From Pseudomonadota bacterium (GTDB lineage Bacteria > Desulfobacterota > Desulfuromonadia > Geobacterales > Pseudopelobacteraceae): a DNA stretch of 38,181 bases. The notes under the pieces were generated by a model. It made no database searches, was not told where the DNA came from, and saw only the letters and a program-made list of their open reading frames with translations. This document shows positions 2 to 13,898 of the stretch, in pieces. The stretch covers positions 1 to 38,181 of the forward strand of contig JABBNX010000015.1 of NCBI GenBank assembly GCA_019352135.1, in the 5' to 3' direction. A program made the position numbers and the translations under genes. Numbering within the stretch: the first letter of the stretch is position 1; each line of letters opens with the position of its first letter.

Positions 2-454
2 CTCCAATTGCAGGAGGCGGTCCCGATGACTATGATAACGCTTTCGAGGATGGCGCTGCTTGCACTGATTGCTGTCTTTGCTCTCTGGTACCGGCGCCGG
101 TTGGCGTTGGCTCCCCGCAGCGAAACCGTTACCTGGGGCTGCGGCTATCAGCGGCCGGCACCCCGGATACAGTACAGCGCTTCATCATTTGCCGAACTGC
201 TGACATCCCTTTTTGCGTTCGTGCTCAAGACTCAAAATCACCTGCCGGGCAAAATGACGGGCCTTTTCCCCGGTCGTTCACGTTTTTACAGTCATGTCCC
301 GGAAGCGGTGCTGGAGTTGGTGTATATTCCGGTGCTGAAGCGGCTGTATCAGCGTTTTTCCGGCGTACGCAGGTTACAGGGCGGTATTTTGCAACAGTAT
401 GTCCTGTATTCTCTGGTTACCCTGATTGTATTGCTGGTAGCCAGCTACCTGTGA
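2..454 (+). CDS. HyfB/NuoL-like proton-channel membrane subunit, C-terminal part (gene continues beyond left edge)
   Basis: The reading frame is open to the left edge, so this is taken as the last ~150 residues of a large antiporter-like subunit (HyfB/HycC/NuoL family). It aligns end to end with the tail of the complete homologue at 5065-7062. Both have a hydrophobic helix, then TWGCGYQR, then a RIQY.A.SF.EL segment, a LTGLFP-like stretch (here MTGLFPGRS), a terminal amphipathic region and a last membrane helix. The family forms the proton- or ion-conducting arm of group 4 hydrogenases and complex I. An AGGAGG at 12-17 before an ATG at 26 could be read as a start site for a short stand-alone protein, but the homology runs upstream through this point, so a partial gene is preferred. 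The carbonic-anhydrase-like gene follows after 20 bases, which suggests one operon. Confidence 0.75.
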   Translation, partial: LQLQEAVPMTMITLSRMALLALIAVFALWYRRRLALAPRSETVTWGCGYQRPAPRIQYSASSFAELLTSLFAFVLKTQNHLPGKMTGLFPGRSRFYSHVPEAVLELVYIPVLKRLYQRFSGVRRLQGGILQQYVLYSLVTLIVLLVASYL

Positions 455-474
455 TTTCCTGAGGAGGCCGCGCC

Positions 475-1545
475 ATGACCCTGTTTGGCACCATTCATGA
501 GCAACCGATAGCACGCCGCATAAACTGGGTTTTTGATCTGGCCCGGAGATACTCGGCCGAGTTTTGTTCTCCGGAAGCCTTCCTCGCCAGGGAGCGTTAT
601 CTTGCGCTGCATCCGACCGCCATTGCCGTCTTGAAATGCATGGACGGCCGGATCAATATCCCGGTCGCCACCAATACACCTCCCGGCATAATCCAGCCGT
701 TCCGTAACCTGGGAGGGATGTTCGATATGGGGTGGCCCCATCTTGGTGAGGTGCTTGCCCAGCACGTCCAACGCATGGTGAGAAGTGGCCGGCGGGTACT
801 GATCCTGATCACCTACCACTTTTCACGCGGTGATGTCCATCGGGGCTGTTCCGGCTTCGGTTGCGATACGGTCGCGGCAATAGCCCACACTCGCCAGATC
901 CAGTCCCAGATGGAAGCTATCTTCGGTGCCGCCCATAACAGCGTCTATCCGCTTATCTGCGGCTTTGAAACCGATGAGGATGCTCTGCTGCTGCACAGTT
1001 CCGACGGCCAAATACTGGATCTGTCCGCTGATATACCGGTAGATGAGCTTGAGGTTGAGTTGGCGCAGCGCTTTCATGACATGCCACAAGAAATGCGGTG
1101 CGACCTTCTGCCGCTGCTGGCCGGGAATCTTTCCCACATCAAAGGATTACGTCAGGAGCGGCGTGCGCTCACCGTCGAGCACCGTGAATGGATGATCTGC
1201 CTGGGGCGCGGATTTGACTTTCTGCATACCCCTAACCTGGCCCTGATCGTCGGGCCATATAGTCCGGATCTGGCCGATCCGATCCGCAAGGCGGCGGCAA
1301 TTATTGAAAATAATATGGCGGCCGGAAGAATCCCCGCCGACGGGTTCCTGCTGCTCGCTTCAGTACCGTACGATGAAATAGGTGTTGACCGGGCTCGCGC
1401 TGTCATGAAATCTCATTTCCTGTCCAAATTCGCTGCCGAAGTGATTGAACGTGAGTTTCCCGACCTGGCCGGGAAAATGATCCGCCACACTGCAGTGCTT
1501 GACTGGAATTCACGCAGGATAGAGACGCTGTCTGAACCAAGCTGA
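475..1545 (+). CDS. beta-carbonic-anhydrase-like zinc protein (CsoSCA/DabA-type active-site signature)
   Basis: A 356-residue soluble protein with no signal peptide or membrane helix. Residues 55-59 read CMDGR, matching the C-x-D-x-R zinc/dyad motif of beta-carbonic anhydrases. A FRNLGG segment at 76-81 resembles the RNAG stretch of that family. The second zinc half-site lies in YHFSRGDVHRGCSGFGCD (114-131): H122 and C125 give the classic H-x-x-C, while H115 and C125 give a longer spacing nearer to that of carboxysomal CsoSCA. A later FETDEDALLLH segment (164-174) also recalls CsoSCA. The likely reaction is CO2/bicarbonate interconversion. The start is set by AGGAGG 8-9 bases before the ATG. 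It lies 20 bases after a NuoL-like subunit, reminiscent of the DabB/DabA inorganic-carbon pumps, although DabA is far larger. The active-site motifs are seen; the function is inferred. Confidence 0.65.
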   Translation: MTLFGTIHEQPIARRINWVFDLARRYSAEFCSPEAFLARERYLALHPTAIAVLKCMDGRINIPVATNTPPGIIQPFRNLGGMFDMGWPHLGEVLAQHVQRMVRSGRRVLILITYHFSRGDVHRGCSGFGCDTVAAIAHTRQIQSQMEAIFGAAHNSVYPLICGFETDEDALLLHSSDGQILDLSADIPVDELEVELAQRFHDMPQEMRCDLLPLLAGNLSHIKGLRQERRALTVEHREWMICLGRGFDFLHTPNLALIVGPYSPDLADPIRKAAAIIENNMAAGRIPADGFLLLASVPYDEIGVDRARAVMKSHFLSKFAAEVIEREFPDLAGKMIRHTAVLDWNSRRIETLSEPS

Positions 1546-1593
1546 GTGGGCTGTCGGGCGCTCAAAAAGGGGCGCAGGCTCTATCCGAACGAG

Positions 1594-1761
1594 GCACTGC
1601 TGAAAAAAGGGGTAGCCGGCCTGGAGGCTGATTCAATAGTACTTGCCCACCAGATTCGTACCATATCCAAGCAGCGTCTGATTATCTGCCTGGGTGAGAT
1701 TCCGGATGCAAATTTTCAATCCCGGATCAATGATGCGCTGCGGGTTCATCTCAATCTGTGA
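1594..1761 (+). pseudogene. C-terminal remnant of a MazF/PemK-type toxin
   Basis: The frame continues directly from the stop codon of the preceding gene, without an obvious start of its own. From about 1594 it encodes LLKKGVAGLEADSIVLAHQ followed by IRTISKQRL and a closing helix ending in RVHLNL. This is the typical C-terminal third of MazF/PemK endoribonuclease toxins (a glycine-leucine turn, the Q-I-R-T strand, a basic turn, a short C-terminal helix). The N-terminal half, with its conserved RNA-binding and catalytic residues, is missing, and so is any antitoxin gene. It is therefore a fragment left by a deletion or insertion at the junction, and not functional. The short stretch 1546-1593 shows no recognisable similarity. 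Confidence 0.6.
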
Positions 1762-2196: not shown

Positions 2197-3465
2197 ATGT
2201 TAATTGAATTCAGTGTTACCAATTTCAAGTCAATTCATTCTACGCAAACCCTCAGCTTGGTGGCTAGCCCTGCTACCGAATTAGAGGAACAAAATTGCTT
2301 CAAGACATCTGAGAAAGGTGTTCCGCGTCTTCTCCGTTCTATCGCTATGTACGGACCTAATGCCTCAGGGAAAAGTAACTTCCTCGAAGCAATGGATTTC
2401 ATGGAGAGCTTTGTCACCGAATCTTCAAAAGAGGGACAGGAAGGGGAACCAATCGAGGTTAAACCATTTATGTTCAATTCCATTAGCCGAACTGAGCCGA
2501 GTGAATTTGAGGTGCTGTTTCTGCAAGAAGGAATTCGCTACCAGTACGGTTTTGCCGCCAACAGTACGCGAGTCACCCACGAGTGGCTAATTGCTTATCC
2601 AGAAGGCCGCTCCCAGCGCTGGTTTGAACGGGTATATGATACTGCAGCAAACAAGGAAAATTGGTATTTTGGCAGTAAGTTCAAGGGGCATAAAACCGTA
2701 CTACAGGAGGCGACGCGCAGTAACGCCCTGTTTCTATCCACTGCAGTCCAATTCAACAACGAGTCGTTGAAGCCCATTTACAACTGGTTCCATAAGAAGT
2801 TGCGCACAATCGGTGTAGCTGGTCTTGCCCCGTCATATTCGGCCTCTTTGTGCAAGACTGACGCAGGCAGAAAAAGGATCCTTGAACTTCTGAATGCGGC
2901 GGATTTGAGCATTGCAGATCTAAAGGTTGAAATGAAGAAGTTTGACTTAACCGACCTACCATCCGACATGCCAGAGCCTCTTAAGGAAGTTATTAGTAAG
3001 GAATTGGATGGTAAGGAAATGCCTGAAGTCAAATTTATGCACACGATGGCAGGGTCAGAAGAGTTAGTTGCCCTTGACCCAGATGATGAATCCGTCGGGA
3101 CAAGAAAGCTGTTTACCCTTGCGGGTCCTTGGCTTGATGTGATCGATAACGGTCACGTGCTATTTGTAGACGAATTGAATAACAGCATGCACCCCAAGAT
3201 GGTGCGCTTCCTTATTGGCCTGATTAACAATCCGCAGATCAACCGGAAAAATGCCCAACTGATATTCTCGACTCATGACACATCGGTGCTAGATAATGAA
3301 CTGTTCCGTCGTGACCAGATCTGGTTCACGGAAAAGGATGCTACCAATGCCACTAAGTTATATCCGCTGTCTGACTTCACTCCCCGCAAAGGTGAAGCTC
3401 TGGAAAAAGGATATTTGAATGGACGTTACGGAGCTTTACCGTACATTGGCGAAGTGAGGTTCTGA
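2197..3465 (+). CDS. AAA-family ATPase (COG1106-type), partner of RloB
   Basis: A 422-residue ATPase of the SMC/OLD-like group found in antiphage systems. The N-terminus has the FSVTNFKSI strand typical of AAA_15/AAA_21 proteins. The Walker A motif is GPNASGKS at residues 53-60. A Walker B-like LFVDELNNSMHP lies near 322-333, and the STHD switch histidine motif at 358-361. The middle (about 100-290) is the lid/coiled-coil insert. An ABC-like signature region (SVGTRKLFTLAG) sits shortly before Walker B. The stop overlaps the start of the next gene by one base (TGATG), so the two are translationally coupled. The family usually senses a phage trigger and controls a TOPRIM nuclease partner. That role is inferred here from pairing and homology. 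Confidence 0.85.
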   Translation: MLIEFSVTNFKSIHSTQTLSLVASPATELEEQNCFKTSEKGVPRLLRSIAMYGPNASGKSNFLEAMDFMESFVTESSKEGQEGEPIEVKPFMFNSISRTEPSEFEVLFLQEGIRYQYGFAANSTRVTHEWLIAYPEGRSQRWFERVYDTAANKENWYFGSKFKGHKTVLQEATRSNALFLSTAVQFNNESLKPIYNWFHKKLRTIGVAGLAPSYSASLCKTDAGRKRILELLNAADLSIADLKVEMKKFDLTDLPSDMPEPLKEVISKELDGKEMPEVKFMHTMAGSEELVALDPDDESVGTRKLFTLAGPWLDVIDNGHVLFVDELNNSMHPKMVRFLIGLINNPQINRKNAQLIFSTHDTSVLDNELFRRDQIWFTEKDATNATKLYPLSDFTPRKGEALEKGYLNGRYGALPYIGEVRF

Positions 3466-4142
3466 TGGGCTCGGATGATCTTTTTCATAAACGCAAACAG
3501 AGGCTTGCGGCTTCCCTGAAAAGAAAAAAAGCAAAGAAAGCGCCCTATGATAGGGTAATTATCGTCTGTGAGGGAGCTAAAACAGAACCGAACTACTTCA
3601 GGGAGATTCGGGATGCCTACCGGCTGAATACTGCCAACATTGATATCTGCGGGCAAGAGTGCGGTTCTGATCCACTCAGTGTAGTCAATTATGCCATCAG
3701 AAAATTCCGGGAAGATAAGGATTATGATCGTGTATATTGCGTGTTTGATCGGGATAAACACGCAACTTTCGATGCTGCCATTGACAAGTTGGGTCAAACG
3801 AGGCTGGGGAAAGACGTTGTTTTTAAGGCCATAACATCAGAACCCTGTTTCGAGTTCTGGCTGCTACTACACTTTGGTTATACAACCCGACAATTCTGCG
3901 CTCCGGGTAATGCTTCAAACTGTGAACTTGTGTTGGCAGAGTTGAACAAAAAGGAGCAAATTCCCGGTTATTGTAAGGGTGCCGGGAACATTTTTGCCTT
4001 AACTAAAGAAAGGCTCTCTGACGCCATCAGGCATGCAAATCAGTTGCAACAACATAACCTGGCAACCGGTACAAACAACCCTTCAACTAACATCCATGAG
4101 CTCATAGAGTATCTAATCAGCCTGAACTCCAGTCCGTCCTGA
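3465..4142 (+). CDS. rloB: RloB-like TOPRIM-fold protein, probable antiphage effector
   Basis: A 225-residue protein of the RloB family, named for genes linked to type I restriction loci. The basic N-terminal helix (residues 9-26) is followed by VIIVCEGAKTEPNYF (31-45), where E36 fits the TOPRIM glutamate. YCVFDRDKH (91-99) supplies the D-x-D pair (D95, D97). SEPCFEFWLLLHF (125-137) is the family hallmark. It starts inside the stop codon of the ATPase gene. ATPase plus TOPRIM pairs include OLD, Gabija and PARIS, which act as abortive or nuclease defences. RloB itself is less characterised. The system lacks any restriction or methyltransferase gene here, so it stands alone as a two-gene unit. 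Confidence 0.85.
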   Translation: MGSDDLFHKRKQRLAASLKRKKAKKAPYDRVIIVCEGAKTEPNYFREIRDAYRLNTANIDICGQECGSDPLSVVNYAIRKFREDKDYDRVYCVFDRDKHATFDAAIDKLGQTRLGKDVVFKAITSEPCFEFWLLLHFGYTTRQFCAPGNASNCELVLAELNKKEQIPGYCKGAGNIFALTKERLSDAIRHANQLQQHNLATGTNNPSTNIHELIEYLISLNSSPS

Positions 4143-4207: not shown

Positions 4208-4930
4208 ATGGCCTACAGACCGCACGCCAATCGGAAGCCGAAACGGTCGTCCACCGGCGGACCCCTCCTGTCATGGCAGATCCCGACCGACCCCGAGTCG
4301 CGATGGCCAGCCTTTGGCGCGGCCGTTGTGGTCATTGCTGGCCAGGCATGGGTGGCCGTAAGCCTCTCGCTCAATCCCGTCTGGCTATTTCCGGCCATCT
4401 CTGCGGTTCTTCTGGTCGCCTCAGTGGCTGTCTACCTGCCTCAGCGGACGGAACCCAGCCCGATCATGCGTGCGCTCGCGGTGAGCCTCATCGGTATGCT
4501 TGTTATCGCAAACGCCGTCAGTCTGGTAGAGCTCGTGCGGAATATTTTTGTTGGGGTAGCAGGGATCACCCCGGTCGGCCTGCTTCTCGTGGGCATTGTT
4601 CTGTGGATCGTCAATATTGCAATCTTTGCCCTGGTATACTGGGAATTGGACGGCGATGGACCCGATATGCGCGCCGACGGCTACCGGGACTTCCCTGACC
4701 TCGTCTTCCCGCAGCAGCAACCCGACCAACAAGGGCTGGCTCCCGCCAATTGGAAGCCGACCTTCCCCGACTATCTGTATGTGTCGCTAACGGCCGCTAC
4801 CGCTTTCTCGCCGACCGACGCAATGCCATACTCGAAGCGTGTCAAACTTGTTATGGGTGTCGAAAGCACCATGTCCTTGGCAATCGTTGCAATGATCGTA
4901 GCCCGAGCCATCAATATTGCCCGCGGGTAG
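4208..4930 (+). CDS. Conserved multi-pass membrane protein with ion-channel-like C-terminal segment
   Basis: 240 residues, family not named with certainty. A basic, polar N-terminus (1-30) precedes membrane segments at about 36-52, 58-76, 87-112 and 120-145. A cytoplasmic-type loop rich in D, P and Q (148-186) follows. Then comes FPDYLYVSLTAATAFSPTDA (186-205), a re-entrant or pore-like stretch, and a final helix (213-236). The pore-like stretch plus last helix resembles the two-helix channel unit of Ion_trans_2/DUF1345-type proteins, although there is no TVGYGD filter. The start is fixed by AAGGAG six bases before the ATG. It lies between the RloB gene and the Ehr operon, and its base composition is like the latter. 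It could be a small ion channel, but this is not established. Confidence 0.6.
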   Translation: MAYRPHANRKPKRSSTGGPLLSWQIPTDPESRWPAFGAAVVVIAGQAWVAVSLSLNPVWLFPAISAVLLVASVAVYLPQRTEPSPIMRALAVSLIGMLVIANAVSLVELVRNIFVGVAGITPVGLLLVGIVLWIVNIAIFALVYWELDGDGPDMRADGYRDFPDLVFPQQQPDQQGLAPANWKPTFPDYLYVSLTAATAFSPTDAMPYSKRVKLVMGVESTMSLAIVAMIVARAINIARG

Positions 4931-5064: not shown

Positions 5065-7062
5065 ATGTATTCCTTACTGCAGGGAGCCTTTGACCCTGCG
5101 CTCGTGGCGCTGGTCGCCGCGCTTGTTATCGGCTGTGCCGGCATCCCCGGCCTGTTTTTTCGAAAGCCGGGTTCCGGACAGATCATTGCAGCGGCAGGCA
5201 CCATCCTTGCCGCCATGGCTGGCGTGCCGGCCTCCCTGCAGCTCCTCTTCAGTCACACAACGAGCACCTATCTTCTCGAATGGAGCCTGCCGTTCGGTCC
5301 CTGCGAGTTTGTCATCGACCCCCTTTCCGCGTTCTTTCTGCTTCCGGTCTTTATCGTCTCCGCCGCAGGCTCACTCTTTGCGATAGGGTACTGGCCGGCG
5401 GCCGAACATCGCGCCACCGAACGGGGCCTGACCTTCTTCTACGGTCTGCTGGCCTCATCGATGGCGATTCTGCTCATGGCCCGTAACGGGGTTTTTTTTA
5501 TCATGGTGTGGGAAGTTATGGCGCTTTCCGCCTACTTTCTGATCGTTACGGAGCATGAACTGGAAAATGTCCGCCGCGCCGGAATTGTCTACCTGATTGC
5601 AACCCACACCGGGACGGTGGCTCTGTTTGTCTATTTCTCGCTGTTGGCGGCTCAAACCGGCTCGTTCCTGCTTCCGGCGGCCGGCTCGCTTTCTGCGCTC
5701 TCTCCGTATGCTGCGGCCATTGCGCTGGCGGCCTTTATCGGCTTTGGAGCAAAGGCCGGCATCATGCCGCTCCACATCTGGCTCCCTTCGGCACACGCGA
5801 ATGCACCCAGCCACGTCTCGGCGGTGATGTCGGGCGTCATGCTGAAGATGGGGCTGTACGGCATCTTCCGTACCCTGACCTTTTTTTACGACCCACCACT
5901 GCTCTGGGGGGCGGTGCTGACGGTCTGTGGGATAACCTCGGCCCTTCTGGGGATTGCCTTCGCGGTGGCCCAGCGCGATCTGAAACGCCTGCTGGCCTGC
6001 AGCAGTATCGAGAATGTCGGCATCATCACCACCGGCCTCGGAGTTGCCCTGCTGGGGGTGTCAAGCCACATTACCGTGCTGGTGTATCTCGGTATGGCGG
6101 GAGCCCTGCTCCATATACTTAATCACAGCTTCTTCAAGCCGTTGCTGTTCCTCGGTTCCGGGGCCATAATCCATGCCGCCGGAACGCGTGAGATGAACCT
6201 GATGGGGGGGCTCGGCAAAGGTATGCCACGTGTGGCACTGCTTTTTCTGGTCGGATCGGTTTCTATCTGCGGTATCCCCCCCCTGAATGGTTTTGTCAGC
6301 GAATTTCTTCTGTATCTCGGCTTTTTTTCACAACTCAAGGCGGGCAGTCTGGTCTATCTGGTGTTTCTGGCCCCGGTGCTGGCACTGGTCGGCGGATTGG
6401 CCGTGGTCGCCTTTACCAAGCTGTACGGCTCGGTCTTTCTCGGCACCCCGCGCAGCTCCGAAGCGGCGCATCCGCACGAAGCGGGGGTGACAATGCTGGC
6501 GCCGATGGCTTTTTTCGCCCTGCTCTGCCTGTTGATCGGGGCGGTTCCGCAGCTGGCGCTGCGTCTGGTTTCTCCCGCCATCCTATCATCCTATCCACAA
6601 ACGGCTTTAGCGGCTTTTCCTGCAGAGTATGGCGCCATCATGGGCAGGCTCTCGCTGGCTGGAATTCTGCTGCTGTCGGCTGCCGTTGTCGTGACGCTCC
6701 TCTGGAGATGGCGGCTTGGTAAAGCTCCGGCAGCCTCTGCGCCAACGTGGGGATGCGGCTATCAGCGCGGTACATCCCGGATACAGTATGGTGCTACATC
6801 GTTTTCAGAACTTGCCGTTTCGGTCTTCAATGGTATTATGCTCCAGCGGGTCGAGCGCCCGAAGTTAACCGGACTTTTTCCCCGAGTGTCACGCTGCAGT
6901 GACGTTCCGACTGAAACGCTTCTGGACCGGATTATTTTACCACTGTTTTCCATGACCGGGATGTTGTTCTCTTTTCTGCATCGGTTGCAGCATGGACTGA
7001 TGCAGGTATATATGCTCTATATCTTTGCTGCCCTGTTTATTCTGATGCTGTGGGCACACTGA
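5065..7062 (+). CDS. ehrA: EhrA: HyfB/NuoL-like proton-channel subunit of an Ehr complex
   Basis: A 665-residue polytopic membrane protein of the antiporter-like family (NuoL/MrpA/HyfB), close to the ~670 of HyfB. Key proton-path residues are visible: E150 in FIMVWEVMALSAYF, K230 in GFGAKAGIMPLHIWLPSAH, H237, H244 and H250 nearby, and K261 in VMLKMGLYGIF. The C-terminal domain has the TWGCGYQR signature shared with the partial gene at the left edge. It starts 8 bases after AAGGAG. It is the first gene of a co-directional set with ehrB, ehrC, ehrD, ehrL and ehrS. In such complexes this subunit is expected to couple electron transfer to ion movement across the cytoplasmic membrane. The name follows the Ehr nomenclature used for Geobacter. 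Confidence 0.85.
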   Translation: MYSLLQGAFDPALVALVAALVIGCAGIPGLFFRKPGSGQIIAAAGTILAAMAGVPASLQLLFSHTTSTYLLEWSLPFGPCEFVIDPLSAFFLLPVFIVSAAGSLFAIGYWPAAEHRATERGLTFFYGLLASSMAILLMARNGVFFIMVWEVMALSAYFLIVTEHELENVRRAGIVYLIATHTGTVALFVYFSLLAAQTGSFLLPAAGSLSALSPYAAAIALAAFIGFGAKAGIMPLHIWLPSAHANAPSHVSAVMSGVMLKMGLYGIFRTLTFFYDPPLLWGAVLTVCGITSALLGIAFAVAQRDLKRLLACSSIENVGIITTGLGVALLGVSSHITVLVYLGMAGALLHILNHSFFKPLLFLGSGAIIHAAGTREMNLMGGLGKGMPRVALLFLVGSVSICGIPPLNGFVSEFLLYLGFFSQLKAGSLVYLVFLAPVLALVGGLAVVAFTKLYGSVFLGTPRSSEAAHPHEAGVTMLAPMAFFALLCLLIGAVPQLALRLVSPAILSSYPQTALAAFPAEYGAIMGRLSLAGILLLSAAVVVTLLWRWRLGKAPAASAPTWGCGYQRGTSRIQYGATSFSELAVSVFNGIMLQRVERPKLTGLFPRVSRCSDVPTETLLDRIILPLFSMTGMLFSFLHRLQHGLMQVYMLYIFAALFILMLWAH

Positions 7063-7115
7063 CATCTGGTGAATACGTTAACGCACATATCCTGTTTTCA
7101 GGTTTGGGAGCTACC

Positions 7116-8024
7116 ATGATGAACGGTATCATCCATATTTTTCTGGCCATCGTGATGCCGCCGCTGCTGTTGGGGGTAATTGGTAAAACGAAGGCGGCGT
7201 TTGCCGGGAGGGTCGGTGCGCCGTTTTTGCAGCCATATCACGATATCATCCGTTTGCTGCAGAAAGGGAGCGTGTTCAGCACGACCACCAGCTGGGTTTT
7301 CCGTGCCGGGCCGATTGTCGCACTGGCAACGGCTGCGGTCGCCGCACTGCTGATTCCGTTTGGCGCACATCCGTCGCCGATCTCTTTTGACGGCGACATG
7401 ATCCTGTACGCCTATCTGTTTGCGCTGGGACGCTTCTTCACGATGGCCGCCGCTCTGGATACCGGGTCAAGTTTCGAAGGAATGGGGTCGGCCCGCGAAG
7501 CGACCTACTCCTGTCTGGCCGAGCCGACGCTCTTTTTTGCGTTGATTACACTGTCCAAGTTGGCCGGGTCATATTCCCTGTCGGGGATGCTGGTCAATAT
7601 CAGCTTCGGCGTATGGCTGAACAACGGGGCTGCGCTGCTGCTTCTCGTCGGCGGAATGTTCATCGTTTTGCTGGCAGAAAACTGCCGCATCCCGTTTGAC
7701 GACCCCACCACCCATCTTGAACTGACCATGATCCATGAGGTGATGGTGCTTGATCACAGCGGCCCGGCTCTGGCGATAATTCAGTATGCCGCAGCTCTCA
7801 AGCTGTTTGTGCTCGGGGCGTTTTTTGTCCATCTGGCGCTTCCGTATGCGACCGGTAATTCTGTTCTTGACTGGGGGCTCTTCATTATTTCCATGCTGGA
7901 GCTTGCCGTTGTCATCGGGGTAGTCGAGTCGGCCATGGCCCGTCTCCGCCTCATTCGTGTTCCACAACTGCTGGTTGCTGCTGCCATACTGGCAGCGTTC
8001 TCTACTCTGCTTGTCATCAGGTGA
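7116..8024 (+). CDS. ehrB: EhrB: HyfC/NuoH-like membrane subunit
   Basis: 302 residues when started at ATG 7116, which is preceded by GGGAG at 5 bases. An upstream in-frame GTG at 7050 lies inside ehrA and would add an unlikely hydrophilic leader. The sequence matches the HycD/HyfC/NuoH family that anchors the peripheral arm and forms the quinone or substrate chamber wall. Visible hallmarks are a QPYHDIIRLLQK loop after the first helix, a GMGSAREATYS loop, and ENCRIPFDDPTTHLELTMIH with E188. About eight membrane helices are expected. The acidic/basic loop residues linking large subunit and membrane arm are intact, implying a functional coupling element. Confidence 0.87.
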   Translation: MMNGIIHIFLAIVMPPLLLGVIGKTKAAFAGRVGAPFLQPYHDIIRLLQKGSVFSTTTSWVFRAGPIVALATAAVAALLIPFGAHPSPISFDGDMILYAYLFALGRFFTMAAALDTGSSFEGMGSAREATYSCLAEPTLFFALITLSKLAGSYSLSGMLVNISFGVWLNNGAALLLLVGGMFIVLLAENCRIPFDDPTTHLELTMIHEVMVLDHSGPALAIIQYAAALKLFVLGAFFVHLALPYATGNSVLDWGLFIISMLELAVVIGVVESAMARLRLIRVPQLLVAAAILAAFSTLLVIR

Positions 8025-8028
8025 TGCA

Positions 8029-8670
8029 ATGATTGCTCTGGCCGATCAACTTCTTGTTCTGGTGCTGCTGATTAACTTCGTCTCGCTCGGCACCAGCCGT
8101 CTGATCTTTTCCATCCGTGCAGTAGCGGTCCAAGGGGTTATCCTGGGGATTCTCCCGGGGATGATTCATCCGTTTACCTGGCACCTGGTCGGGATTACAG
8201 TCGTAAATATCACGGTCAAGGGGTTTGTGATTCCCTTCATGCTGGTCCGGGCTGTCCGTTCCGCGGAGATCAAACGTGAGGTGGAGCCGTTTCTGGGGTA
8301 TGTCCCCACGCTGCTGCTCGGGGCGGTCTTCACGGCGCTTTCGTTCAGTTTCGCCGGCAAGTTGCCGATGCTGCAGGAACACCAGAATTTCATGTTCGTC
8401 CCGGCGTCGATTGCCACGCTGATGACCGGCTTTCTGATTTTAACGACTCGCCGCAAGGCAATTTCGCAGGTGATCGGGTATCTTATCCTTGAGAACGGCA
8501 TTTTTATCTTCGGCCTGCTGCTGGCGGAGGCGATGCCGATCATGGTTGAAGCGGGGGCGCTGCTCGACCTCCTGGTCGGCACCTTCGTGATGGGGATTGT
8601 TATCAACCAGATCAGCCGTGAGTTCTCCTCGCTGGATACCTCGCGCTTGACCTCCCTGAAAGAGGAGTAG
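8029..8670 (+). CDS. ehrC: EhrC: HyfE/NuoK-like membrane subunit
   Basis: 213 residues, the same size as HyfE (216). It starts at the ATG four bases after the ehrB stop. It contains about six hydrophobic helices, with conserved-looking features such as YLILENGIFIFGLLLAEAMP (E in a membrane helix) and a C-terminal GTFVMGIVINQISREF. HyfE/HycD-type small subunits carry the NuoK-like acidic residues of the proton path. The stop is TAG, one of two intact genes here ending in TAG. It is embedded between ehrB and ehrD with gaps of 4 bases on each side, so co-translation is likely. Confidence 0.83.
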   Translation: MIALADQLLVLVLLINFVSLGTSRLIFSIRAVAVQGVILGILPGMIHPFTWHLVGITVVNITVKGFVIPFMLVRAVRSAEIKREVEPFLGYVPTLLLGAVFTALSFSFAGKLPMLQEHQNFMFVPASIATLMTGFLILTTRRKAISQVIGYLILENGIFIFGLLLAEAMPIMVEAGALLDLLVGTFVMGIVINQISREFSSLDTSRLTSLKEE

Positions 8671-8674
8671 TCCC

Positions 8675-10108
8675 ATGTTTGCTGCCCTGATCATACTCCC
8701 GCTCATCGGATCTGCCGTAACCTGGCTGATTCCGTTTGATCGAATGCGCCCCAAGATATTGTCGCTCTTTGCTTTTGCGCATTTTGGCCTCACAATCCGG
8801 ATGTTGATCGTCACCCCCCCCGAATCTCCGGGTGGCTGGTTCCATCTGGATGCGCTCGGGAAAATTGTGCTGTTAAGCACCAGTGTTCTCTTTCTGACCT
8901 GCGCCGTGTACTCGATCGGCTACCTGTATTATCGTCGTGAACGTTCCAACCGCATGCTCTGCGTGTGGCTGCTGGTCTGCCTGTCGGCGGCCTCGATGGT
9001 TACCATTACCCACCATCTGGGACTGATGTGGGTGGCGCTTGAAACCACGACCATAGCCATGGCCCCGCTGATATACTTCAACCGCAATGCCCGCTCTATC
9101 GAGGCGACCTGGAAATACCTGCTGATCTGCTCGGTCGGGGTTGCCCTGGCTCTGATCGGCCTCTACTTCCTCGCATACGCCACGATTGTCGCCAGGGTTG
9201 AGCCGTCGCTGCTGCTGGATGATCTCATCCGGGATGCCGGTAAACTTTCCTCCGGTTGGGTTCATGCCGCCTTTGTCTTCCTGCTGGTCGGTTTCGGTAC
9301 AAAGATGGGGCTGGCGCCGCTCCATACCTGGAAGCCGGATGCGTATGGCGAGGCCCCCGGTCTGGTTGGCGCCCTGCTGGCCGGCGGGTTGGTTAATCTG
9401 GCTTTTCTGGCCCTGGTGCGAGTCTATCAGGTCTGTATCGCTACCAAGGAAATCGCTTTTTTTCAGAATGCACTCGTTGTCATGGGGCTTGTTTCGATGG
9501 TTTTTGCCGCTATTTTCATGGCGCGCCAGACTGATTTCAAACGGATGCTTGCGTACTCCAGCGTTGAACATGTCGGCATCATGGCGGTGGCACTCGGATT
9601 GGGCGGCACGGCGATCTTCGGCGCGCTGTTCCATGTTCTTGCCAACGGCCTGACCAAGGGGGTGCTGTTTCTCTCTTCCGGCAATATTCACCGCTCCTAC
9701 AACAGCAAGAATACCGATCATGTGCGGGGTGCCTTGCGCCGTCTTCCCTGGTCGGGGGGACTCTTTATGGCCGGATTCATCGCGATCACCGGTTCGCCAC
9801 CTTTTGCACCTTTTATCAGCGAATTTACCATTATCAGCAGCGCTTTTATTCAAGGGCGGATGCTGGTTGGCGCTATCTTTCTGATTGCGCTGACGTTTAT
9901 TTTTATCGGCATGGCGTTAACTGTTCTGCCGATGCTCATGGGTGACGTTCCCCCGGAGAGCGAGACAACATCCTATCGTGATACTTTTGGGACCGTCGGT
10001 CCGCCACTGGCCCTTCTGCTGGTGGTGTTCCTGCTGGGAGTGTGGATACCTGGCCCGTTGATGACCTTGCTGCGCGACGGATCGGCACTTCTGGAGGTGC
10101 CTCGATGA
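8675..10108 (+). CDS. ehrD: EhrD: HyfF/NuoN-like proton-channel subunit
   Basis: A 477-residue antiporter-like subunit, second of the two large channel proteins of the complex. E123 lies in LMWVALETTTIAMAPLIYF. K210 lies in GFGTKMGLAPLHTWKPDAY, the HyfF-type version of the conserved lysine/histidine helix. SIEATWKYLLICSVG is nearly identical in style to HyfF. AYSSVEHVGIMAVALG marks the second half-repeat. About 13-14 helices are expected. Its stop overlaps the start of ehrL (ATGA), which ties membrane and peripheral subunits together in expression. Confidence 0.86.
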   Translation: MFAALIILPLIGSAVTWLIPFDRMRPKILSLFAFAHFGLTIRMLIVTPPESPGGWFHLDALGKIVLLSTSVLFLTCAVYSIGYLYYRRERSNRMLCVWLLVCLSAASMVTITHHLGLMWVALETTTIAMAPLIYFNRNARSIEATWKYLLICSVGVALALIGLYFLAYATIVARVEPSLLLDDLIRDAGKLSSGWVHAAFVFLLVGFGTKMGLAPLHTWKPDAYGEAPGLVGALLAGGLVNLAFLALVRVYQVCIATKEIAFFQNALVVMGLVSMVFAAIFMARQTDFKRMLAYSSVEHVGIMAVALGLGGTAIFGALFHVLANGLTKGVLFLSSGNIHRSYNSKNTDHVRGALRRLPWSGGLFMAGFIAITGSPPFAPFISEFTIISSAFIQGRMLVGAIFLIALTFIFIGMALTVLPMLMGDVPPESETTSYRDTFGTVGPPLALLLVVFLLGVWIPGPLMTLLRDGSALLEVPR

Positions 10109-11625
10109 GCTACGGCATGAAAACGTTTTACAATGGCACTTCGTTCCCCCGTAGTGAGATCCCGGTGCCGGATAACGACACCTTTTTTCAGGGGGTTATG
10201 GATGCTATCGCGGCAGGCTGGCGGGTGTGCTCTTATTTCGGTGTTCCGAATGCTGCCGGGGCGATGCTGTATTGCGTTATGTCCTCCCGGGCCGGGAGCG
10301 GTACTCTTGGAATTATTGCCACGCCGGTCGGGCGCTCCTTTCCATCACTGGCGACCGCCTGTCCGCAACTGCACCTGTTTGAACGCGAGATAGCCGAGCA
10401 GTGCCTGGTCCGTCCGGAAGGACACCCTTGGTTCAAGCCGGTCCGTTTTCAAAAACCGCTGTGCGAGGGAGAAGGATTCTGGAGCGAGAGCGATGGTGGC
10501 GGCCTGCTTCCGGGCGTGATGGATTTTTACCGCGTCGAGGGGGATGAAGTTCATGAAGTTGCGGTTGGTCCGGTACACGCCGGTATCATAGAACCGGGGC
10601 ATTTTCGCTTTCAGTGTCACGGCGAAGAGGTGTTCCACCTGGAAATTGCACTCGGCTTCCAGCATCGCGGTATCGAACGGGTGCTGATCGGCGGACCGAC
10701 GCCACGGACCATGCATCTGATGGAAACGATAGCCGGTGATACGACGATCGGCCACGGCCAGGCCTATTGCATGAACATGGGATCACTCGGGGGAGTCTTC
10801 GCGTCGCCACGGGCCGAAACGGTGCGCGGAATCGCTCTGGAGCTGGAACGGCTGGCCAATCATACGGGGGATCTCGGCGCAATTTCCGGAGATGTCGGGT
10901 ATCTGCCGACCGCTTCGTTCTGCGGCCGGATACGGGGTGATTTTCTTAATATGACCGCCCTGTTGTGCGGCAGCCGTTTTGGTCGTGGCCTGCTCAGGCC
11001 GGGTGGGCTTGGTTATGATTGTGATGCTGCAATTGCGGAGGAACTGTACAAACGGCTGCAGGCTGCACGCGAGGATCTTGCCGGAGCGGTTAAGCTCCTC
11101 TGGGATTCCCCTTCGGTTATGGCGCGTCTGGAAGAAACCGGCACGGTTACGAAAGAGGACGCCCGCGAGATCGGCCTTGTCGGTCCGCCAGCCCGTGCCT
11201 GCGGTCTGAACCGCGATGTCCGGCGCGATCATCCCTTCGGGATATTCCGGATGAGCCAGATACCGGTCATTACCGCGACTACCTGCGACGTTGCCGCGCG
11301 CACGCTGCTCCGCTGGCTCGAGGCGGAGCGCTCTCTCGATTTCATCGCTGAACAGATCCGTCATCTGCCGCGCGGCGGCTATCGAACGGAGATGAAACCG
11401 ATTGCCGCTGATCGCTGTGCCGTGGCGTTAACCGAGGGGTGGCGGGGTGAAATATGCCATGTCGCCTTGACTGACGCGCAAGGGCGCTTTGAACGCTACA
11501 AGATCGTAGATCCTTCGTTTCACAACTGGAGCGGGATGGTGCTTGCCTTGCGCAATCAGCAGATTTCGGACTTTCCGCTCTGCAACAAGAGTTTCAACCT
11601 GTCGTACTGCGGGTTTGATCTGTAA
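10105..11625 (+). CDS. ehrL: EhrL: hydrogenase/NuoCD-like large subunit lacking Ni-Fe ligands
   Basis: 506 residues. The ATG at 10105 overlaps the ehrD stop and has GGAGG at about 9 bases; an earlier frame start at 10042 lies inside ehrD. The N-terminal ~170 residues are the NuoC-like domain. The rest is NuoD/HycE-like, with GFQHRGIE at 184-191. In active [NiFe] enzymes the next motif is C-G-x-C; here the equivalent reads AGDT (210-213) before IGH. At the C-terminus the DPCxxC motif is replaced by DPSFHN (469-474). All four Ni-Fe cysteines are thus missing, as reported for Geobacter Ehr complexes. Hydrogen cleavage is therefore not expected. The true electron partner or substrate is unknown. 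Confidence 0.85.
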   Translation: MSYGMKTFYNGTSFPRSEIPVPDNDTFFQGVMDAIAAGWRVCSYFGVPNAAGAMLYCVMSSRAGSGTLGIIATPVGRSFPSLATACPQLHLFEREIAEQCLVRPEGHPWFKPVRFQKPLCEGEGFWSESDGGGLLPGVMDFYRVEGDEVHEVAVGPVHAGIIEPGHFRFQCHGEEVFHLEIALGFQHRGIERVLIGGPTPRTMHLMETIAGDTTIGHGQAYCMNMGSLGGVFASPRAETVRGIALELERLANHTGDLGAISGDVGYLPTASFCGRIRGDFLNMTALLCGSRFGRGLLRPGGLGYDCDAAIAEELYKRLQAAREDLAGAVKLLWDSPSVMARLEETGTVTKEDAREIGLVGPPARACGLNRDVRRDHPFGIFRMSQIPVITATTCDVAARTLLRWLEAERSLDFIAEQIRHLPRGGYRTEMKPIAADRCAVALTEGWRGEICHVALTDAQGRFERYKIVDPSFHNWSGMVLALRNQQISDFPLCNKSFNLSYCGFDL

Positions 11626-11637
11626 AATGGAGCCTGT

Positions 11638-12402
11638 ATGCTAAAAGCGATTATGACACGTTTCCGCCAGGGGCATCGCACCTTCAAATATCCCGATGCG
11701 CCGCTGCCGCTGCCCCCCCGTTTTCGGGGCCTGCCGCTGCTGGACGCCTCGCGCTGCGGTGATGATGGGTGCCGCGCCTGTGCCGCCGCCTGCCCGTATG
11801 GAGCAATTTCTGCCTCCGGCCCGCTGGCACTCGATATGGGCAAATGTCTGTTCTGTGCTGACTGCGTTGCCGCGTGCCCTCATGATGCGCTCGCATTTTC
11901 AACAGATGCCCGGCTTGCCAGCCGGAGCCGTGAAGGGCTGGCGGTGACTGCCGGCGAACAGTATCATCCGGCACAGGCGCTGGATGGCACGTTGTTGAAG
12001 CTTTTCGGACGGTCGCTCAAGCTGCGTGAAGTCAGCGCCGGCGGCTGCAACGCCTGTGAGGCGGATACCAATGTCCTCTCTACCATCGGCTGGGACCTGG
12101 GGCGTTTCGGCATTCAGTTCGTTGCCAGCCCCCGCCATGCTGACGGTCTCTTTATCACCGGGCCGGTTACTGAAAATATGCGCCTGGCGCTGCTGGACAC
12201 GTATGCGGCAATTCCTGAACCCAAACTGGTCATCGTCGCCGGCGCCTGCGCGATCAATGGCGGTCCGTTCAAGGATCACGCCGAAGTGCATAACGGAGCT
12301 GATGGTCTTGTGCCGGTAGATCTCTATATCCCCGGCTGTCCTCCCAGTCCCCTGACGATTCTGGACGGGCTGCTGCGTCTGGTGGGGCGGATCCGGGAAT
12401 AA
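11638..12402 (+). CDS. ehrS: EhrS: ferredoxin-NuoB fusion small subunit with three [4Fe-4S] clusters
   Basis: 254 residues combining two modules. Residues 36-82 are a two-cluster ferredoxin (NuoI/HyfH type): C40, C45, C48, C52, and C70, C73, C76, C80. The first binding loop is CGDDGCRAC, with four residues between the first two cysteines instead of two. Residues 130-254 are the NuoB/HyfI module, with GGCNACEAD (C137, C140), GACAING (C204) and PGCPPSP (C234). These are the four ligands of the N2-type proximal cluster. GGAG precedes the ATG by 5 bases. The protein should pass electrons from a cytoplasmic donor to the large subunit's cavity. It ends the Ehr operon proper. Confidence 0.87.
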   Translation: MLKAIMTRFRQGHRTFKYPDAPLPLPPRFRGLPLLDASRCGDDGCRACAAACPYGAISASGPLALDMGKCLFCADCVAACPHDALAFSTDARLASRSREGLAVTAGEQYHPAQALDGTLLKLFGRSLKLREVSAGGCNACEADTNVLSTIGWDLGRFGIQFVASPRHADGLFITGPVTENMRLALLDTYAAIPEPKLVIVAGACAINGGPFKDHAEVHNGADGLVPVDLYIPGCPPSPLTILDGLLRLVGRIRE

Positions 12403-12452
12403 ACAAGCGTGGAATGATGGATGCGGAAACAATTTCAATTAAGGAGATGAGT

Positions 12453-13898
12453 ATGGATCAGCAAAAACAGGTTGCCTATCTGCAGGAGTGGAAAGAGCAT
12501 GAAACATGTGCCGAACAGATGTTGCCGATTATCGGTCGTCTGTACCGTGACCATAATATTATTCTGACCCTGTATGGGCGCACTCTGGTGCATAGCACGG
12601 TTATCGATATTTTAAAGGCGCACCGCTTTGCCCGTTTGATTCTGGATTCCGAACTCACCGTCATGGAAACCTATCCGCTGCTGGCGGCAATGGATAAACT
12701 TGATCTTGCCCCGGGGCGGGTTGATCTCGGCAAATTGACCATTCAGTATCAAAAAATGGCGGATAAACTTTCAGTTGAGGAATTCATCACGAAGGAACTC
12801 GCCAGAATCAACACCGGCCGCAGCGCCGTGCGCGCCGAACCGCAGGATATTGTACTGTATGGTTTCGGACGTATCGGGCGTCTGTTGGCCCGCATCCTGA
12901 TTGAAAAGTCAGGCAGCGGTGAAAAGCTGAGGATCAGGGCGGCCGTTGTGCGCAAGGGTGGGGCGGATGATCTGCTGAAACGTGCCAGTCTGCTGCGCCG
13001 CGATTCTGTTCATGGCCAGTTCAACGGCATTATTACAATCGATGAGGAAGAAAATGCCATCATTGCCAACGGCAACATGATCCGGATTATCTACGCCGAT
13101 GCTCCCGAAAATGTCGATTACACCCAGTATGGCATTCATGATGCAATTCTGATCGACAATACCGGCAAGTGGCGGGATCGCGAGGGGCTCGGACGGCATC
13201 TGCAGGCGCCCGGCATCGCAAAGGTCATTCTGACCGCTCCCGGCAAGGGGGATATTCCCAATATTGTCGCCGGCATTAACAATAGCCTGATCACCGAAGA
13301 TGAACGGATTTTCTCCGCTGCCAGCTGTACGACCAATGCGGTTGTTCCGGTGATGAAGGCGATCAACGATCGTTTCGGCATTATTCACGGACATCTGGAA
13401 ACCTGCCATTCCTACACCAATGACCAGAACCTGATCGACAACTATCACAAGGCTTCCCGCCGTGGCCGCAGCGCCCCCCTGAACATGGTCATCACGGAAA
13501 CCGGAGCTGCCAAGGCGGTCGCCAAGGTCATTCCCGAGCTGTCGGGCAAGCTGACAGGAAATGCGATCCGGGTGCCAACCCCGAACGTTTCCCTGGCGAT
13601 CATGAATCTGGAGCTGGCGCATGCTGTTGACGTCGAAACCATCAACAGCTATCTCCGTAATATGTCGCTCGATTCTCCGTTGCAGAACCAGATCGATTTC
13701 ACCAATTCACCTGAAGTCGTTTCGAGCGATTTTGTCGGTTCACGCCATGCCGGTGTCGTGGATTCATTGGCAACAATCGCCGAGGGGAACCGGTGTGTGC
13801 TGTACGTCTGGTATGACAATGAATTTGGCTACAGCTGTCAGGTTGTGCGCATGGTTCAACAGATGGCAGGATTGGAACTTCCGACCCTGCCGAGTTGA
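12453..13898 (+). CDS. gap: Glyceraldehyde-3-phosphate dehydrogenase, long form with N-terminal extension
   Basis: 481 residues from ATG 12453 (AAGGAG six bases before). The first ~130 residues are an extension of the kind found in the long GAPDHs of pseudomonads and relatives. The dehydrogenase core then begins with YGFGRIGR (136-143). The catalytic cysteine is C292 in SAASCTTNA. WYDNEFGYS marks the C-terminal cofactor site. After the Rossmann beta2 strand the sequence is AAVVRKGG, where NAD-specific enzymes usually have an acidic residue, so NADP use is possible. It follows ehrS by 50 bases and may be co-transcribed. The enzyme acts in glycolysis or gluconeogenesis in the cytoplasm. Confidence 0.92.
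   Translation: MDQQKQVAYLQEWKEHETCAEQMLPIIGRLYRDHNIILTLYGRTLVHSTVIDILKAHRFARLILDSELTVMETYPLLAAMDKLDLAPGRVDLGKLTIQYQKMADKLSVEEFITKELARINTGRSAVRAEPQDIVLYGFGRIGRLLARILIEKSGSGEKLRIRAAVVRKGGADDLLKRASLLRRDSVHGQFNGIITIDEEENAIIANGNMIRIIYADAPENVDYTQYGIHDAILIDNTGKWRDREGLGRHLQAPGIAKVILTAPGKGDIPNIVAGINNSLITEDERIFSAASCTTNAVVPVMKAINDRFGIIHGHLETCHSYTNDQNLIDNYHKASRRGRSAPLNMVITETGAAKAVAKVIPELSGKLTGNAIRVPTPNVSLAIMNLELAHAVDVETINSYLRNMSLDSPLQNQIDFTNSPEVVSSDFVGSRHAGVVDSLATIAEGNRCVLYVWYDNEFGYSCQVVRMVQQMAGLELPTLPS

Follow-up and report, generated by a model that had tools for sequence, protein, structure and literature searches.

Complex-I-like assemblies of Hyf-type subunits that have lost the NiFe cysteines, which we take to be the energy-converting-hydrogenase-related (Ehr) complexes and to include the gene set treated here, have to our knowledge no established function. 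A working partner has been left open for CsoSCA2, the name introduced in 2022 for homologues of the carboxysomal carbonic anhydrase (CA) CsoSCA that are encoded outside carboxysome loci (PMC9164163). As far as its passages on csoSCA2 go, that paper describes the family as widespread, calls the lack of study so far surprising and distinguishes a truncated variant ("csoSCA alone") in which the N-terminus is short and the active site complete and which occurs in heterotrophs such as Accumulibacter. Two further systems are pertinent. In DAB2, DabA inserts a finger-like hairpin into the membrane, and Glu444 of this protein substitutes for the charges of NuoL transmembrane helix 12 (TM12), according to the portion of PMC13144422 that deals with this contact. 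In Acidithiobacillus caldus, hyfBCEFG lie immediately beside a β-CA gene, for which the authors propose a role in pH and CO2 homeostasis in the relevant part of PMC3826726. Here, the first two families meet on a 38,181-nucleotide stretch of Geobacterales DNA, hereafter the window, which is one entire contig (JABBNX010000015.1) of a 3.8 Mb genome (275 contigs; GCA_019352135.1, here G000). A first-pass annotation of this DNA had combined the tail of a NuoL/HyfB-like protein (HyfB1) and the compact CA encoded behind it into a possible smaller version of the DAB bicarbonate pump. The CA belongs to a known family, CsoSCA2, and the placement of its gene in an Ehr operon hints at the enzyme working alongside the complex.

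The 356-residue product of the gene at 475–1545 is CsoSCA2, a β-type CA of two domains without the long carboxysome-specific N-terminus. It matches PF20686 (CsoSCA_cat) with 29.7 bits against a cut-off of 21.5 (E 5.7e-7), and its best PDB relatives by sequence are carboxysomal CsoSCA enzymes. An AlphaFold model (mean predicted local distance difference test score, pLDDT, of 80.5) aligns with the CsoSCA structures 8thm, 9g4t and 2fgy at Z scores of 28.3, 27.3 and 27.1 over 327–335 residues, the next entry reaching 18.2, and Foldseek relates it to CsoSCA with E 2e-15. The two-domain fold of CsoSCA is matched over model residues 5–356; the N-terminus is short, with C55 lying 54 residues from the start. 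The assignment to CsoSCA2 follows from the CsoSCA family and fold, from a score far below that demanded by TIGR02701, the equivalog of carboxysomal CsoSCA (33.4 bits, cut-off 241.05), and from the absence of any RuBisCO match (PF00016) in the genome. The gene has Ehr genes as neighbors rather than a carboxysome locus. Its nearest csoSCA2 relatives come from Geobacteraceae and other deltaproteobacterial assemblies; the best 80 of 231 confirmed csoSCA2 loci were compared, so that counts of genomic context hold for those members of the family that lie closest to the window gene. A plasmid collection searched for csoSCA2 gave no match.

Both zinc motifs listed by the first-pass annotation, CMDGR (C55-D57-R59) and HRGC, are present, and C55, D57, R59, H115 and C125 are invariant in 81/81 sequences (the window gene and the 80 loci). 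The histidine that it had chosen, H122, has to be rejected as a zinc ligand: position 122 is a histidine in just 23 of the 81 sequences, whereas the invariant H115 aligns, together with C125, with the histidine and cysteine of YHFS...GC in CsoSCA, presumably the zinc ligands His242 and Cys253 of that enzyme. By alignment, zinc would be bound by C55, H115 and C125, with D57/R59 as the dyad, and the protein is predicted to be an active, soluble CA.

The gene set next to csoSCA2 is of the Ehr type. Although the first-pass annotation had placed the rest of the operon outside the window, a second complete hyfB gene (hyfB2) and a full Ehr set lie downstream, with the Hyf-type subunits B, C, E, F, G and I all present at 5065–12402. 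In the large subunit HyfG, CGIC of HycE is replaced by AGDT and the C-terminal DPC motif is not kept; because the NiFe cysteine motifs are lost, the subunit is Ehr-type, and a working NiFe hydrogenase can be rejected. In intact relatives the gene order is ptsN-like, hyfB1, a CA gene where present, hyfB2, C, E, F, G and HI. On the contigs L026–L037 of relatives, hyfB1 precedes csoSCA2 on the same strand in 12/12 cases, and the same gene order is found in a member of another family (G068); the csoSCA2 ATG follows the hyfB1 stop after 19–81 nucleotides in these 13 loci. Among the 12, a ptsN-like gene encoding a helix-turn-helix (HTH) and a PTS-EIIA domain (PF12728, PF00359) stands upstream of hyfB1 in 10, the other two contigs starting in or at hyfB1, and hyfB2 follows downstream of csoSCA2 in nine, the remaining three having it on a separate contig. 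Hence, the adjacency first noticed in the window, a NuoL/HyfB-like subunit directly before a β-type CA, recurs throughout this group. The first-pass annotation had held that an adjoining hydrogenase or Ehr complex, with no such adjacency in other genomes, would speak against a pump: an Ehr complex does adjoin (downstream), but the CA adjacency is conserved in a clade.

Many relatives without csoSCA2 still carry HyfB1. In 15 of 21 csoSCA2-less loci of the same genus, most of them chosen because both hyfB genes shared one contig, HyfB1 is followed by a same-strand HyfB2 or another Hyf set, either adjacent or behind an insert; in the other six, the contig ends 0–3.6 kb after HyfB1. Since Hyf genes follow HyfB1 in this genus also without csoSCA2, HyfB1 is there a regular Ehr operon gene and not half of a two-gene pump. 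Two loci of a sister genus (L126 and L173) have no Hyf gene within ~7 and ~10 kb after HyfB1, respectively, and HyfB1 and HyfB2 are divergent in several other genera (L120, L121, L169). Another Hyf/Ehr set directly after HyfB1 was seen in L115, L116, L117, L119, L124 and L125, and five of these six genomes also have a hyfB2-type gene elsewhere. The closest PDB relative of HyfB1 is formate hydrogenlyase subunit 3 (HycC). Charged residues that mark a full antiporter-like channel are retained in HyfB1, with E142, K222, K253, K350 and K446 kept in 33/33 rows of the alignment; K446 would, by its position, be the TM12 lysine. On the same contigs csoSCA2 is better conserved than HyfB1 (mean identity 86% versus 78%, 66 pairs), and the pairwise identities of the two correlate weakly (r 0.24).

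The slot behind hyfB1 is not reserved for one CA family. In G033 and G007 a classical β-CA (PF00484, E 1.5e-51 in G033) takes the place of csoSCA2, starting 19 and 25 nucleotides past the hyfB1 stop. The HyfB1 tree places them as sister rows inside a branch of 11 rows with csoSCA2, two with β-CA and five with neither (95% support in the Shimodaira–Hasegawa-like approximate likelihood ratio test, SH-aLRT). Because they are nested in a branch that otherwise has csoSCA2 or no CA, one CA probably replaced the other in the slot. Further placements come from outside the Geobacterales clade: in Phaeospirillum (L092), hyfB-C-E-F-G-I are followed on the same strand by csoSCA2, whose ATG lies 32 nucleotides past hyfI, and in L069 and L095 csoSCA2 stands tail to tail with hyfI at distances of 12 and 52 nucleotides. 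While the Geobacterales sequences form a single clade in the csoSCA2 tree (support 100), the four other Ehr-adjacent sequences do not represent one lineage, as three changes are needed to accommodate them. By rough arithmetic, assuming one Ehr operon among ~4000 genes, three direct Ehr neighbors among 68 loci are far above chance. In G065 and G072, moreover, a ptsN-hyfB-...-hyfHI cluster is followed at its 3' end by a same-strand β-CA gene. The slot swap, the Phaeospirillum placement and the Hyf/β-CA neighborhood of Acidithiobacillus suggest a link between CA and Ehr in these genomes. The literature searched, which covered few subscription papers, yielded no description of a csoSCA2 gene placed in a Hyf or Ehr operon.

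Other gene arrangements around csoSCA2 were noted in passing. A β-CA gene directly precedes csoSCA2 on the same strand in two loci of another family (L161, 8957–10798; L162, 9056–10843), and in L069 a β-CA gene lies beside it on the opposite strand. Runs of antiporter-like genes occur within 10 kb of csoSCA2 in 4/68 loci (L046, L061, L067, L085); they resemble nuo L-M-N by gene order only, and in L067 csoSCA2 is tail to tail with the nearest of them. As for the ptsN-like gene, 37 of the 60 Ehr stretches taken from across the phylum (L177–L236) also carry the HTH plus EIIA combination, a hint that Ehr may be under nitrogen- or phosphoenolpyruvate-linked phosphorelay control.

The features of the window are collected in Table 1, in which the order that the first-pass annotation had described (a HyfB/NuoL-like tail, 20 bases with a ribosome-binding site, then the CA gene) is borne out. 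As the window is a whole contig, hyfB1 is incomplete because the contig end cuts the gene. The fragment is 93% identical to residues 522–668 of the L026 HyfB1; complete HyfB1 has ~669 residues in relatives (668–682 in L026–L037 where complete), and a search of the genome with the full protein gave no second piece that fits the missing part. The window hyfB2 product shares 47% identity with the L037 HyfB1. Between csoSCA2 and hyfB2 lies an AbiL-like pair, for which PADLOC returned AbiLi (E 2e-101) and AbiLii (E 1e-30). In the hyfB1-hyfB2 junction of L107, the opposite strand carries a PemK-like gene (2520–2903; PF02452, E 2e-20), and L110 has a closely similar reading frame there (2484–2846). 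Behind the Ehr operon follows a gene for a long-form GAPDH (12414–13898; NF006139, 811 bits), as it does in L032, L035 and L037.

Table 1. Features of the window from the 5' end to the last Ehr gene, with the evidence for each.
Feature	Position	Strand	Evidence
hyfB1, last 150 codons	2..454	+	NCBIfam NF005086 "hydrogenase 4 subunit B", E 1.1e-18, profile positions 528-666 of 669
hyfB1-csoSCA2 gap, 20 bases	455..474	+	Shine-Dalgarno-like gaggagg at 461-467, read from sequence
csoSCA2, non-carboxysomal CsoSCA-type carbonic anhydrase, 356 aa	475..1545 (ATG at 475)	+	PF20686, fold, conservation
PemK/MazF-like gene remnant (insert, outside the system)	1549..1761	+	PF02452, E 2.3e-7 over 70 aa
AbiL-like defence pair (insert): AAA_21 ATPase and RloB	2197-3465 and 3465-4142	+	Pfam AAA_21, RloB
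DUF1345-like gene	4208-4930		match below cut-off
hyfB2, second HyfB-type antiporter-like Ehr subunit, complete	5065..7062	+	NF005086, E 1.7e-160
hyfC/nuoH-like membrane subunit	7119..8024 (start chosen; open frame from 7050)	+	PF00146, E 7.1e-33
hyfE/nuoK-like membrane subunit	8029..8670	+	PF00420, E 1e-4, below cut-off; gene-order position in relatives
hyfF, antiporter-like subunit	8675..10108	+	PF00361, E 4.7e-48; NF005044, E 8e-93
hyfG/nuoD-like large subunit without NiFe cysteine motifs (Ehr)	10105..11625	+	PF00346; aligned to HycE 7z0s_E
hyfHI, ferredoxin domain fused to NuoB-like subunit	11638..12402	+	PF01058 and Fer4 families

How could a CA serve such an operon? With its gene standing between hyfB1 and hyfB2 in part of the Geobacterales clade, CsoSCA2 may be co-transcribed and co-expressed with the Ehr complex as a soluble enzyme that lets CO2, bicarbonate and protons equilibrate rapidly in the adjoining cytoplasm. 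The pump, or a CO2-linked metabolism feeding the pump, would then not be limited by slow CO2 hydration. We regard this account, in which a soluble, co-expressed CsoSCA2 equilibrates the three species near Ehr, as the probable one on balance. It draws on the family, the predicted fold, the invariant catalytic residues, the gene order, the β-CA in the same slot of a sub-branch and the higher conservation of csoSCA2 relative to HyfB1; enzyme activity, solubility, co-transcription, the link with Ehr and the buffering role are inferred.

Several observations weigh against it. A β-CA or csoSCA2 gene was found in 1/60 further Ehr stretches of the phylum, at a distance of ~10 kb, and in 0/40 control stretches, the survey having sought these two CA types and not α- or γ-CAs. 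The 60 stretches, six of which are shorter than 15 kb, were hand-picked from 89 matches. Among those not included, three (G000, G039 and the first cluster of G065) were already known to have a CA nearby, one was the second G440 match, which falls inside an included stretch, and the remaining 25 were for the most part weaker or lay on short contigs. The controls were non-random, hand-chosen and spaced positions in eight genomes with long contigs. Once G000, the first G065 cluster and G039, where a β-CA gene lies 6 kb from Ehr on the other strand, are added, the count becomes 4/63. Since so few Ehr stretches hold one, Ehr is in no general need of a neighboring β-CA or csoSCA2, and a coupling of the two across the phylum, considered as a candidate, is not supported. 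Seen from csoSCA2, an Ehr cluster lies nearby (up to 10 kb on each side) in 4/68 loci outside the Geobacterales clade and in 0/8 further loci of the phylum, L157, L158 and L159 repeating contigs already counted, judging by their length. The csoSCA2 state changes at least six times across the 33 HyfB1 rows, and five rows of its own HyfB1 branch have an empty CA slot. The slot swap amounts to two sister genomes and one event. Finally, no HyfB1 alignment column separates the 13 csoSCA2-bearing rows from the 20 others at the cut-offs used.

The scarcity of such CAs at other Ehr stretches would also be expected if CsoSCA2 were a passenger, that is, a housekeeping CA whose gene sits at an insertion-prone point of the Ehr operon and borrows the promoter there, with no functional tie to the complex, an explanation that we consider rather unlikely. 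In its favor, the hyfB1-hyfB2 junction also holds unrelated inserts (mazF-like in L107/L110; the AbiL pair and the MazF remnant in the window), which likewise tells against the soluble partner of Ehr. The same applies to the distribution of csoSCA2 and the L108-type β-CA (E up to 1e-50), which never occur together in 98 relatives (15 and 29 genomes, none shared), as expected of interchangeable housekeeping CAs; the hypergeometric probability of this non-overlap is 0.003, or 0.04 within the genus (13 and 7 of 39), relatedness being ignored. A passenger accounts less well for the use of a single operon slot by two types of CA, each encoded on the operon strand and close behind hyfB1, and for the separate placements, inside an operon or at its 3' end, seen in Phaeospirillum and G065/G072. 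The Hyf/β-CA neighborhood already in print for Acidithiobacillus (in the part of PMC3826726 concerned with it) points in the same direction. Moreover, G000 has at least one other β-CA-family gene, so that csoSCA2 need not be the sole CA of this organism.

A more intimate arrangement is conceivable, in which CsoSCA2 docks at HyfB1 on the cytoplasmic face of Ehr and ion pumping drives the hydration of CO2 to bicarbonate, as in NDH-1MS. The locus offers the matching parts, namely a complex-I-like core plus one more HyfB-type subunit, the gene of which adjoins a CA gene, and a complex-I-like machine, NDH-1MS, indeed carries a CA-like protein on its terminal NuoL-type subunit (PMC6981117). Yet HyfB1 is present also without csoSCA2, no HyfB1 column distinguishes the rows that carry it at the cut-offs used, and a β-CA can occupy the slot. 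The main channel charges are intact in all 33 HyfB1 rows, while NdhF3 has lost charges of its lateral channel (PMC6981117). CsoSCA2 has no segment here that members elsewhere lack, and the genome has no RuBisCO match. We therefore judge NDH-1MS-like docking distinctly unlikely. A bolder form, in which CsoSCA2, or the β-CA in the sub-branch, docks on the cytoplasmic face of Ehr and a ferredoxin-linked ion pump hydrates CO2 vectorially, appears decidedly doubtful to us; if true, it would add a third CO2-hydrating complex-I relative to NDH-1MS and DAB, in an organism without detected RuBisCO. Least of all can the compact two-gene pump be upheld, in which HyfB1 and the CA would form a proton-driven vectorial CA of the DAB type: beyond gene adjacency and shared β-CA chemistry it has nothing in its favor, and it is highly improbable and rejected here, since neither the 356-residue protein (E up to 1) nor the genome has a match to PF10070 (DabA), HyfB1 belongs to the Ehr operon in the genus and occurs without csoSCA2, no HyfB1 residue tracks csoSCA2, a lysine stands (by position) where DabB relies on the glutamate of the DabA finger (contact described in PMC13144422, in the portion cited above), and the Geobacterales CsoSCA2 has no extra segment relative to other members and hence no candidate for such a membrane finger.

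Taken together, a CA gene within an Ehr operon that was swapped for another CA type in a sub-branch ties the puzzles of CsoSCA2 and Ehr together. Compared with the truncated CsoSCA2 variant, the window protein shares the short N-terminus, the complete active site, the second β-CA-like domain and the location outside carboxysome loci. Unlike there, it is encoded inside a HyfB/Ehr operon, of which the csoSCA2 section of PMC9164163 makes no mention, and among the loci examined here csoSCA2 genes mostly stand away from Hyf/Ehr genes. With known Ehr complexes the operon has in common HyfB, HyfC, HyfE, HyfF, a NuoCD-like HyfG without the NiFe cysteines and a ferredoxin-NuoB subunit. It differs in its two hyfB genes, a feature also seen in other Ehr loci, and in the CA gene between them in part of the clade. 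The Hyf cluster of A. caldus likewise places Hyf-type genes immediately beside a CA gene, there on the flexible genome, but its CA is described as β-CA-type, its complex as an H2-evolving hydrogenase, and the lineage is a different one (PMC3826726, in the part describing the cluster). The DAB/MpsAB systems (DabA, PF10070, plus DabB) resemble the locus in that a NuoL-family protein is encoded beside a β-CA-like zinc protein; in contrast, the CA of the window is CsoSCA2 and not PF10070, and HyfB1, a full subunit of the Hyf type, is encoded next to a larger set of genes. With NDH-1MS, in which CupA sits on NdhF3, it shares the combination of a CA-type protein with a complex-I-like membrane machine, here by gene position only. 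CupA, however, is all-helical with another zinc site (PMC6981117), whereas CsoSCA2 has a predicted β-CA fold with the corresponding ligands. The locus thereby adds to a pattern of CAs around complex-I-type ion pumps that so far comprises NDH-1MS, DAB and the Hyf/β-CA neighborhood of Acidithiobacillus.

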